From: Deltaproteobacteria bacterium
Lineage (GTDB): Bacteria > SAR324 > XYD2-FULL-50-16
DNA: 64,000 bases
Reading direction: 5' to 3'
Assembly: GCA_018657625.1 (NCBI GenBank)
Contig: JABHWU010000028.1
Coordinates: 1 to 64,000 of the forward strand
The notes beneath the pieces are model-generated. The model worked only from the letters and a program-made list of their open reading frames with translations. It was not told where the DNA came from and searched no databases. The translations under genes were made by a program, and so were the position numbers. Of the stretch, positions 16,210 to 19,322 are shown piece after piece; position 1 is the first letter of the stretch, and every line of letters starts with the position of its first letter.

Positions 16210-16434
16210 ATAGGATACTGCTTATAAAAAATTAAAAAGAACCTATAAACGTGGGTGGCGATAATATTAGCCGATTTACCAGTTTATATTCAATGGCTAT
16301 CATTTAATCTGCAACCTAGAAAATTAACCAAGTTATATCGTTAAATCAAGCTATTATTTTTAATTTTAACTCATGATGAAAGCATTAGAGGAATAAAGCC
16401 GGTGCGACTAAAACTGAAGGGGCTCTATTTTTAG

Positions 16435-16471
16435 AAGACAGAAGCTTTTTAACTGCTTTGGCTTCTGTCTT
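16435..16471 (-). terminator. Hairpin downstream of the FmdB-selenoprotein operon
   Basis: AAGACAGAAGC (16435-16445) and GCTTCTGTCTT (16461-16471) form a perfect 11-base stem with a 15-base loop. It lies 29 bases after the stop of the small minus-strand gene. There is no clear T run after it on the minus strand, so it may act as an mRNA end stabiliser or a weak terminator. Confidence 0.55.
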
Positions 16472-16499
16472 TATATAAATGGAACCATTAAAATTACTT

Positions 16500-16679
16500 T
16501 TAATGGTTGGAGGGATTATTGGTGTCTTCTTTTTGAGGTTCTTCTGTTTTTTTATTTGTATCTGTCGACACGCGACAGCTATTGGCACTCATTCAGGTTT
16601 GAACACCTAATTTAGGCAAAATCCATTTTTGCAGTACGAACCAAATAACGATAAAAATAATAAATGAGAATGATTCCAT
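16500..16679 (-). CDS. Candidate small membrane selenoprotein (in-frame UGA at codon 29)
   Basis: ATG 16679 follows AAGGAAT and opens a frame with a hydrophobic helix (SFIIFIVIWFVLQKWIL) and then LPKLGVQT. Codon 29 is TGA (16593-16595). Reading through continues in frame with MSANSCRVSTDTNKKTEEP and stops at TAA 16500, giving 59 residues. The product would have U29 and Cys35 exposed just after the membrane helix, a plausible redox or metal-binding pair. A hairpin fitting the bacterial SECIS rules lies 20 bases after the UGA. It is 46 bases downstream of an FmdB-type zinc ribbon gene on the same strand. The alternative is two unrelated 28- and 30-residue peptides coupled at TGA-ATG. Selenocysteine insertion is inferred, not proven. 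Confidence 0.6.
16562..16578 (-). promoter_or_regulatory. bSECIS-like hairpin downstream of UGA
   Basis: On the minus strand CTGTCG and CGACAG form a perfect 6-base stem with apical loop CGTGT. Twenty bases separate the UGA from the loop, and G is the second loop base. These match the published bacterial SECIS rules of a small loop, a G in the first two loop positions, and a 16-37 base distance from the UGA. Confidence 0.58.
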
Positions 16680-16725
16680 TAAATTCCTTTTTGAGTATCT
16701 CAAACTGAGATGTATGTTAGATTCC

Positions 16726-16932
16726 TCAACCACCGCCCGGGGAACAGGATGGCGCTTGAAATTGATTTGACCCACTTTGCCCGGCCACACTGCCCAGACT
16801 GGTGAGGCTGGGTAATTTCTTGGTGTCTGCCTTTTTACATTCCGGGCAAAGAGGCAGTTCAGTGGCTGTTGAAGACGTAAGCTCCTCAAATTGATAACCA
16901 CAATCATTGCATTTAAATTCAAAAAGCGGCAT
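16726..16932 (-). CDS. FmdB-family zinc ribbon protein
   Basis: A 68-residue protein starting MPLFEFKCNDCGYQFEEL with zinc-ligand pairs C8-x2-C11 and C29-x2-C32 and a Gly/Ser/Pro tail (SCSPGGG). This is the FmdB regulatory zinc ribbon family, small proteins of uncertain role sometimes linked to formamidase or metal-dependent regulation. Ribosome site AAAGGAG precedes the ATG. The next gene on the same strand is the candidate selenoprotein, and the pairing of the two should be tested for conservation. Confidence 0.88.
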   Translation of the reverse strand: MPLFEFKCNDCGYQFEELTSSTATELPLCPECKKADTKKLPSLTSLGSVAGQSGSNQFQAPSCSPGGG

Positions 16933-17123: not shown

Positions 17124-17163
17124 GTAACGTTACTAAACTAGATTAATACGTAAAGTAACGTTA
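17124..17163 (+). promoter_or_regulatory. Two direct copies of a TAACGTTA palindrome before the sigma-54 activator gene
   Basis: GTAACGTTA occurs at 17124-17132 and again at 17155-17163, 31 bases apart (three helical turns), each containing the palindrome TAACGTTA. The second copy touches the first possible start codon. They look like cooperative binding sites, perhaps for autoregulation. A TATAAT at 17115-17120 may be the -10 of the promoter. Confidence 0.5.
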
Positions 17164-18584
17164 TGGTAACGGAAAAATATATCATGGATATTGAAAACTT
17201 TGATCATCGGTTCACCTCCCAATTGTTGAATGCAATGGCGGACGGGGTTTTTACATTGGATAATCAGGGGAAGATAACTTCCTGGAATCCTGCCATGGAG
17301 CGAATGACAGGATTTAAGGCTGAGGAAGCCATCGGAAAAAAATGTGGAATGTTGGCTTTTGATAAATGTGCAGATCGAGGCTGTTTAACTGATTTTACCA
17401 ATTGTGGTATTTTTCAGCCGGATGTACTTGAAGCCAAAGAGTGCCATTTAAAACATAGAGATGGCCGGGCCATACCCGTTTTAAAAAAAGCCAGAAAAGT
17501 TTTAAGTGAGGATGGAAATTTATTAGGGGTCATAGAGAATATTACAGATCTAACTGAAATCTATTTTTATCGAAATAAAATGGAATCGGTGCAGTCAAAA
17601 TTAGTCCAATTATATAGTTTCGATAATATTATCGGTAAAAGTCATATTATGAACCAGGTTTTTTCAGCTATAAAATCTGCCAGCGCTAGTGATGTTACAA
17701 CACTGATTCAGGGAGAAAGTGGTACCGGAAAAGAGTTGGTGACGAGCGCCATTCATTATCATAGTGTTCGGGCAAAGCAGCCATTAGTTATCGTAAATTG
17801 TAGTGCCTTATCAGAAACATTGTTGGAAAGTGAATTATTTGGTCATATCAAAGGAGCCTTTACCGGTGCAATAAGGGATAGAGCCGGTCGATTTGAAGAA
17901 GCGGAAGGGGGTACAATATTTTTAGATGAAGTCAGTGAGCTGAGTCCGTATATCCAGGTAAAATTATTAAGGGTTTTGCAGGAGCGTGAAATTGAGAGAG
18001 TCGGAGAGTCCAGGAAAAGAAAATTTGATATCAGGGTAATCGCGGCTGCGAATCAGGATCTGTTCCAGAAAATGAAAGAGGGTGTATTTCGTGAAGATTT
18101 ATATTATCGTCTAAAAGTATTTCCGATCAATGTTCCTCCCCTGAGAAAAAGAAAAGATGATATTCCTCTTCTGGTTGAAAAGTTTATCGACAGGCAGAAT
18201 TTTAAGACCCATAAAGATATTGATGGTGTTTCTCCTGATGTCATGCGCAAGTTGATGGACTATCAATGGCCAGGAAATGTCCGTGAATTGGAAAATGCTA
18301 TTGAACATGCTTTTGTCATCTGTAATCAAAAAACTATTGAATTGGTGGATTTACCGATAGAAATTCGGGAAGACAGACAATTTGACAGTGTTTCAACACC
18401 ATCACATCGGGAAAGAGCACCAAGAGTGAAAAACAACGTTGATCGGGAATCTTTAATTGAGTTATTAAAACAATGCCATTGGAATAAGGCTGAAGTAGCC
18501 AGAATTGTTGGAGTAAGCCGTACAGCCATTTGGAAATATATGAAAAAATGGGATATCCCTTTGCAAGAGGCTGATTTGGAGTAA
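17163..18584 (+). CDS. PAS-domain sigma-54-dependent transcriptional activator
   Basis: Enhancer-binding protein that remodels RNA polymerase-sigma-54 by ATP hydrolysis. An N-terminal PAS domain (about residues 15-130) contains five Cys within about 50 residues (KKCGMLAFDKCADRGC, NCGIF, KECHLK), suggesting an iron-sulfur or redox sensor. The AAA+ domain (about 155-390) has Walker A GESGTGKE, the sigma-54 contact loop GAFTGA, Walker B GGTIFLDE and the sensor region WPGNVRELE. A Fis-type helix-turn-helix (HWNKAEVARIVGVSRTAIWK) ends the 473-residue chain. ATG 17163 gives the longest form; ATG 17184 is equally possible. Targets are unknown; no matching sigma-54 promoter was identified nearby. Confidence 0.92.
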   Translation: MVTEKYIMDIENFDHRFTSQLLNAMADGVFTLDNQGKITSWNPAMERMTGFKAEEAIGKKCGMLAFDKCADRGCLTDFTNCGIFQPDVLEAKECHLKHRDGRAIPVLKKARKVLSEDGNLLGVIENITDLTEIYFYRNKMESVQSKLVQLYSFDNIIGKSHIMNQVFSAIKSASASDVTTLIQGESGTGKELVTSAIHYHSVRAKQPLVIVNCSALSETLLESELFGHIKGAFTGAIRDRAGRFEEAEGGTIFLDEVSELSPYIQVKLLRVLQEREIERVGESRKRKFDIRVIAAANQDLFQKMKEGVFREDLYYRLKVFPINVPPLRKRKDDIPLLVEKFIDRQNFKTHKDIDGVSPDVMRKLMDYQWPGNVRELENAIEHAFVICNQKTIELVDLPIEIREDRQFDSVSTPSHRERAPRVKNNVDRESLIELLKQCHWNKAEVARIVGVSRTAIWKYMKKWDIPLQEADLE

Positions 18585-18672: not shown

Positions 18673-19116
18673 ATGGGCAAAATCGTAATTGATACGAACA
18701 TCATTGTTTCAGCGTTGATAAGCAGGAGCGGTAGCTATTCAAGGAAAATCATTGAAAAAGTATTCGATAATTTAATTACTCCACTTATGGGAGAAGCTTT
18801 ATTTAACGAGTATACAGAGGTTACCAATAGACATGATATTTTCAAACTATGCGTTTTAAACAAAAAAGAAAGGCTAGAATTTCTTCAGGCATTCATGAAA
18901 TGCTGTTTATGGTGTAAAATATACTACAATTGGAGACCCAATCTTCAAGACGAAGGTGATAATCATATTATTGAATTGGCTGTTGCAGGGGGGGCAAATT
19001 ATATCGTCACAAAAAATATTAAAGACTTAAAAAGCGGTGAATTACTATTCAAGAAATTGCAGATTAAAACGCCTGATGAATTTATTAAGGAGAAATTATG
19101 GGAACAATCACAGTAA
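18673..19116 (+). CDS. PIN-domain toxin (VapC-like, COG1569 type)
   Basis: Predicted Mg2+-dependent RNase toxin. The 147-residue product starts KIVIDTNIIVSALISRSG, giving the first catalytic Asp, with Glu in NEYTEV, Asp in QDEGDNHIIELA and a final acidic site in YIVTKNIKDL, the ordering of the PIN fold. It resembles the putative toxin-antitoxin PIN family rather than classical VapC. It overlaps the following antitoxin gene by 19 bases, with toxin first, the less common order. The pair is followed by an attC-like site. Confidence 0.85.
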   Translation: MGKIVIDTNIIVSALISRSGSYSRKIIEKVFDNLITPLMGEALFNEYTEVTNRHDIFKLCVLNKKERLEFLQAFMKCCLWCKIYYNWRPNLQDEGDNHIIELAVAGGANYIVTKNIKDLKSGELLFKKLQIKTPDEFIKEKLWEQSQ

Positions 19117-19322
19117 GACTTCCAGATGACACACATAAAAGAATTAAAGAATTGGCTGCGACAAGAAAAACAAGCATAAACAAACTTTATGGGGAATTCA
19201 CTGTAATGGCTTTAACCGAATTTGATGCTGAAAATCGTTTTAGGGTTATAGCGAGTAAAGGTAGCAAAAAACGGGGCCTTGATTTGTTACACAAACTTCA
19301 ACACCATTACGGCGATAAATAA
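19098..19322 (+). CDS. Antitoxin with ribbon-helix-helix domain
   Basis: A 74-residue protein beginning MGTITVRLPDDTHKRIKELA, then TRKTSINKLYGEFTVMAL, the strand-helix-helix pattern of ribbon-helix-helix DNA-binding antitoxins, with a basic C-terminal tail that would bind the PIN toxin. Ribosome site AAGGAG precedes ATG 19098 within the toxin reading frame, implying coupled translation. It likely represses the palindrome-rich promoter at 18614-18642. It ends 8 bases before the attC-like site. Confidence 0.85.
   Translation: MGTITVRLPDDTHKRIKELAATRKTSINKLYGEFTVMALTEFDAENRFRVIASKGSKKRGLDLLHKLQHHYGDK

Follow-up and report, generated by a model that had tools for sequence, protein, structure and literature searches.

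The eukaryotic selenoproteins SELENOS and SELENOK have a single membrane helix, carry selenocysteine (Sec) in a short cytosolic tail, and take part in thiol redox at the membrane. For prokaryotes, an inventory of 119 selenoprotein families and subfamilies was published in 2026 (PMC13188914). It covers UXX-star and other C-terminal Sec families (NF041114, NF041211) as well as the putative FmdB-family selenoprotein (TIGR02605) of the Global Ocean Sampling, in which Sec is located in CxxU or UxxU (PMC2398784; also PMC13188914). In this work we analyzed a 64,000-nt stretch of contig JABHWU010000028.1 (the window), in which a preliminary description had flagged a 59-codon frame with an in-frame UGA as a candidate selenoprotein gene next to an FmdB zinc ribbon gene. 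There is hardly any doubt that the flagged frame is a genuine gene, encoding a very small selenium protein anchored in the membrane.

The resemblance to SELENOS and SELENOK is an analogy of architecture only and no homology is claimed; the Sec of the micro-selenoprotein is positioned 5-6 residues from a Cys and near the membrane. The Global Ocean Sampling protein and the FmdB protein of the window have in common an FmdB-type zinc ribbon with Sec, but the former has Sec in CxxU or UxxU, whereas the latter has intact zinc-ribbon CxxC pairs and a putative Sec in the C-terminal tail. UXX-star and the other C-terminal Sec families resemble this FmdB in that no more than a few residues follow Sec, although their domains differ. 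A HesB-like selenoprotein (TIGR01911 / NF038090) is also small and is encoded directly upstream of the membrane gene in same-family genomes; it is of the IscA/HesB type with Sec in GUGGP, and its sequence is unrelated to the membrane selenoprotein. Weak resemblance to the YgaP-like TM domain (PF11127) was observed in the W-[IF]-L-x-K-L-G-x-x-C segment after the helix, and a PF11127 gene adjoins the membrane selenoprotein in a few loci. Membership in PF11127 was rejected: there was no Pfam match, and the profile match covered only 14 columns with 45% probability. The earlier suggestion that the membrane protein could belong to a new family is supported by the searches. The family had no match above cut-off in Pfam, no match at E <= 0.01 in NCBIfam 20.0 for any of 29 members, no match in a PDB profile search and none in a plasmid tblastn search with the family consensus. 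No entry of the 2026 inventory fits it when compared by name and motif, and the same comparison gave no match among the Haft and Tolstoy 2025 families in the form in which that inventory gives them (PMC13188914). Decoding is standard, but in these comparisons both the membrane family and the FmdB tail appear to be new.

The membrane selenoprotein gene is located on the minus strand at 16500..16679, with ATG at 16679, the in-frame UGA at 16595-16593 (16593..16595, U29) and TAA at 16502-16500, and comprises 59 codons including the UGA. The ribosome site ahead of the ATG is AAGGA; a good ribosome site had been noted before. The translation is MESFSFIIFIVIWFVLQKWILPKLGVQT-U-MSANSCRVSTDTNKKTEEPQKEDTNNPSNH-stop (59 aa; U29, C35). 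The codon of the partner cysteine C35 is at 16575..16577 (-), and a Cys at U+5 or U+6 is kept in 102 of 106 non-redundant genes. Residues 2-23, encoded by 16611..16676 (-), form the single membrane helix predicted by AlphaFold2 and hydrophobicity. The ATG is 37 bases past the end of the upstream FmdB gene when the latter is counted through its own UGA, and an identical membrane selenoprotein gene is found in the same-class genome G029. A perfect 11-bp hairpin spans the TAA stop (16483..16508, minus strand; fold z = -5.29) and may be a 3' processing or terminator element; the inverted repeat AGACAGAAGC...GCTTCTGTCT 3' of the gene (approximately 16434..16472, minus strand; fold z = -3.77) is a possible terminator. 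An Rfam scan of the region returned sub-threshold chance matches only.

Homologs are widespread. A first search matched 25 of 58 related genomes as well as 21 loci from other bacteria; 24 of the 25 genome matches contain a single TGA, and the remaining one runs off the end of its contig. In a 29-row family profile, L16, G25, U/C29 and C35 are invariant. Profile matches were detected in 167 of 395 genomes (~42%) sampled from the phylum of a Desulfobacteraceae genome, 70 of 297 (~24%) from the phylum of an Acidobacteriales genome and 40 of 392 (~10%) from the phylum of a Pirellulaceae genome, and the family is present in at least four bacterial phyla. Among 179 loci examined in detail, the UGA column contains UGA in 170 and a Cys codon in nine (for example GIRTCMSGAC and GMKTCLSGFC); TAA or TAG was found in none of the 179. 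The coding sequence past the UGA is conserved among homologs, and the Cys homologs align with the UGA. Frame 0 remains open for 15 codons past the UGA in 104 of 106 genes, as compared to 53-58 of 106 for the other frames. The homolog comparison proposed in the preliminary description therefore gave Cys in the UGA column and conserved sequence downstream of it, in favor of the selenoprotein reading.

A bSECIS hairpin, CTGTCG-cgtgt-CGACAG, is located at 16562..16578 (-). Counted from the UGA, its stem starts at +15 and its loop at +21, and the second base of the loop is G. The 6-base stem, 5-base loop and G at position two had been described correctly; the distance of 20 bases from the UGA holds for the loop and not for the stem. 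By itself the window hairpin is unexceptional (fold z = -0.90), so the case for it depends on the family. A bSECIS-type hairpin was scored in 103 of 124 distinct UGA genes; at the threshold used it was not found in the remaining 21. By comparison, 200 shuffles of synonymous codons, in which the protein is preserved, averaged 29.9 genes with a hairpin and never exceeded 42. With the strictest threshold, the count was 54 genes versus 2.9 in shuffles. Only two of eight Cys genes scored. The stems vary strongly among lineages, e.g. GCTTCCG-cgtga-CGGAAGC and CGTATTGA-gga-TCAATGCG. In 14 close sequences, 10 double-change cells were counted as compared to 4.7 in shuffled alignments, above every shuffle, although the inner stem pairs are the only ones that all 14 retain.

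The genome of the window encodes the Sec machinery; all four genes sought (selA, selB, selC and selD) are present, and its selD contains a UGA. The lack of selA, selB or selC, named in the preliminary description as refuting a selenoprotein, thus does not apply. The selB gene is on the same contig, ~0.4 kb beyond the window end (G000:C14:64371-66263, minus strand). SelB scored over the cut-off in 30 of 33 tested genomes with a family match, all but one or two of which carry the UGA form. In the Planctomycetota, SelB was detected in none of nine Cys-form genomes versus nine of 11 UGA-form genomes (Fisher p = 0.0003). SelB over the cut-off was not found in two UGA-form planctomycete and three other genomes, possibly due to incomplete assemblies.

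The gene upstream of the membrane selenoprotein is an FmdB-family zinc ribbon gene (16717..16932, minus strand), which scored over the curated cut-offs of TIGR02605 (51.6 vs 31.3 bits) and Zn_ribbon_8 (PF09723; 52.2 vs 34.4). Its apparent stop is a UGA at 16726..16728 (-) after residue 68, followed by GGA ATC TAA; read through this UGA, the putative product has 71 residues with Sec and ends in SCSPGGG-U-G-I. A bSECIS-like hairpin, ATCTCA-gtt-TGAGAT, is located at 16697..16711 (-) with its loop at +21. The coupling to FmdB proposed earlier holds up, but FmdB's own C-terminal UGA and hairpin had been overlooked. The same arrangement is present in 37 of 37 FmdB genes from the window's phylum and from the phyla of the Desulfobacteraceae and Acidobacteriales genomes, a sample drawn mostly from loci that also carry the membrane selenoprotein. 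All 37 end in UGA with a second stop within four codons, and the residue after the UGA is A in 25, G in 10 and S or C in the rest. In genome G003 the FmdB gene (L251, contig C82) and the membrane gene (contig C93) are on separate contigs, so the tail is independent of close linkage. Viral FmdB relatives are without the tail and without the hairpin, and a plasmid search gave two partial matches that both end short of the tail. Searched against NCBIfam, the extended FmdB gave no matches other than its own family model and some weak zinc-ribbon ones.

The codon counts at the UGA column, the co-occurrence with SelB, the family hairpins and the open frame together argue, at the level of sequence, that the UGA of the 59-residue protein in all likelihood encodes Sec, with very little room for doubt. 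Since the base following the UGA is A in 99 of 124 genes, many of which read ATG there, one could regard the UGA as a true stop that ends a 28-residue membrane peptide, with TGAATG as the stop-restart of a second tiny frame; but this is contradicted by the Cys homologs, which read straight through, and by the many genes in which the UGA is directly followed by GCG, ATC, GGC, ACC or ATT, codons that are not usual starts. The absence of TAA and TAG from the column in the 179 loci, and the way in which Cys and Sec forms track SelB presence, make this explanation very improbable. The frame open beyond the UGA would also fit decoding as another amino acid, by a changed genetic code or by read-through, yet the homologs without UGA have Cys at the column, the genome contains the whole Sec machinery, and UGA terminates 322 of 641 sampled neighbor genes of family loci; this is the least probable of the readings and can practically be dismissed. 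In view of the Cys homologs and SelB co-occurrence, we discarded both stop-restart and a changed genetic code. A further reading accepts the membrane selenoprotein but takes the UGA of FmdB for an ordinary stop, and the hairpin after it for a terminator or a chance structure. In its favor, just one to a few codons follow the FmdB UGA, and a Cys form of the tail was not found in the fetched loci or in the plasmid and viral searches; the latter is the chief weakness of the case for Sec in FmdB. Against it, a hairpin with its loop at +18 to +25 is present in 37 of 37 FmdB genes as compared to 31 of 322 (10%) ordinary UGA stops from the same loci, and the invariable UGA is followed by A or G in 35 of the 37. 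We consider an ordinary stop improbable, and C-terminal Sec a highly probable reading of the FmdB-type UGA sequences.

The gene neighborhoods are variable, and most family loci are without an adjacent FmdB or redox gene. In 23 of 179 loci, FmdB is the next gene upstream and is read from the same strand; in about nine more it follows the membrane gene at once or nearly so. Several phyla are represented, including that of the Acidobacteriales genome, where FmdB lies just downstream; the FmdB coupling thus outlasts a change of gene order, which agrees with the synteny expected in the preliminary description. Among 72 same-strand genes directly upstream, 14 encode FmdB, eight encode metallo-beta-lactamase-fold proteins resembling persulfide dioxygenases, seven encode rhodanese domains and a few encode thioredoxins or DsbD/CcdA. 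Seven Pyr_redox_2 proteins are encoded downstream; thioredoxin reductase and type III sulfide:quinone reductase-like proteins are among them. Same-family genomes have, one after the other, genes for a sigma-54-type activator, the HesB-like selenoprotein, the membrane selenoprotein and thioredoxin reductase. The HesB-like selenoprotein gene (GUGGP) lies ~100-450 bases upstream of the membrane gene in L199, L200 and L031, which makes two adjacent Sec genes. In the window, a divergent gene at 17163..18584 (+), named by eye from its sequence as a PAS / sigma-54-type activator, is a possible regulator; a similar activator gene adjoins the selenoprotein in same-family genomes. Two TAACGTTA palindromes (17124-17133 and 17156-17163) lie in the gap that separates the FmdB operon from the divergent activator gene and are a possible operator. 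A sigma-54 promoter 5' of FmdB was considered, and the one imperfect match (TGGCATAATCATTGA) is too weak to claim. Further along, 18673-19322 (+) encodes a PIN-domain-like protein and then a small ribbon-helix-helix-like protein (assigned by eye only), possibly a toxin-antitoxin pair.

In the AlphaFold2 model the helix extends over residues 2-23, with pLDDT of about 86-89 over residues 1-20 and low confidence past residue 23. The mean charge across the family is -0.7 for the first five aligned residues and +1.6 for the 11 residues before U. The acidic N-terminus and the basic stretch before U predict a cytoplasmic C-terminus, that is, an N-out, C-in topology, which would put U29/C35 on the cytoplasmic side of the membrane, the side on which one would expect thioredoxin, FmdB and persulfide dioxygenase. 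In the mechanism we propose, a two-gene operon would encode FmdB and then the membrane micro-selenoprotein, with Sec in both products inserted by the standard bacterial route of SelA/B/C/D and a hairpin after each UGA. The micro-selenoprotein would be a single inner-membrane helix with its N-terminus out. Its U29/C35 pair would lie close to the membrane on the cytoplasmic side and may carry out thiol-selenol exchange with protein disulfides or with sulfane sulfur (persulfides). Either thioredoxin together with thioredoxin reductase, or FmdB through its flexible Cys/Sec tail, could keep the pair reduced. Where the operon handles sulfide, the micro-selenoprotein would act on persulfides that sulfide:quinone reductase forms and persulfide dioxygenase-rhodanese uses up. 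The picture as a whole, a two-selenoprotein operon with the proposed function, appears reasonably likely to us.

The presence of thioredoxin, thioredoxin reductase, persulfide dioxygenase-rhodanese, sulfide:quinone reductase, CcdA and the HesB-type selenoprotein among the neighbors suggests that thiols or persulfides undergo redox exchange on the cytoplasmic side of the membrane; for this functional step alone, we put the chances at about even. The main functional rival is that a real selenoprotein binds metals or organometals (e.g. Hg, As, Zn) together with FmdB. Sec has a high affinity for soft metals, FmdB itself is a zinc ribbon protein, and ArsR-type and MerR regulators are found near some family loci; nevertheless, the commonest other neighbors are of the thioredoxin, thioredoxin reductase, persulfide dioxygenase-rhodanese and sulfide:quinone reductase types, and one of the ArsR neighbors also matches the persulfide-sensing BigR model, below its cut-off. 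A metal-binding role is unlikely, in our estimation. With the thiol/persulfide role, the FmdB C-terminal Sec and the membrane Sec/Cys protein may make up an undescribed selenium-dependent thiol/persulfide relay at the cytoplasmic membrane face in at least four phyla, a proposal that is tentative and a little short of even odds.

Selenoproteins are readily misannotated because UGA resembles a stop codon, and the shortest ones are missed most easily. Such a relay would have been overlooked since both frames seem to end at UGA, and FmdB and the micro-selenoprotein together have the look of a redox module that depends on selenium and has escaped notice. To the known selenoproteins, the findings add a membrane protein of minimal size that carries a Sec/Cys pair; to FmdB, a widespread and poorly understood family, they add a new putative Sec site. 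With these two observations, the role of FmdB becomes directly testable, and they hint at a selenium-dependent step in sulfide/persulfide handling.
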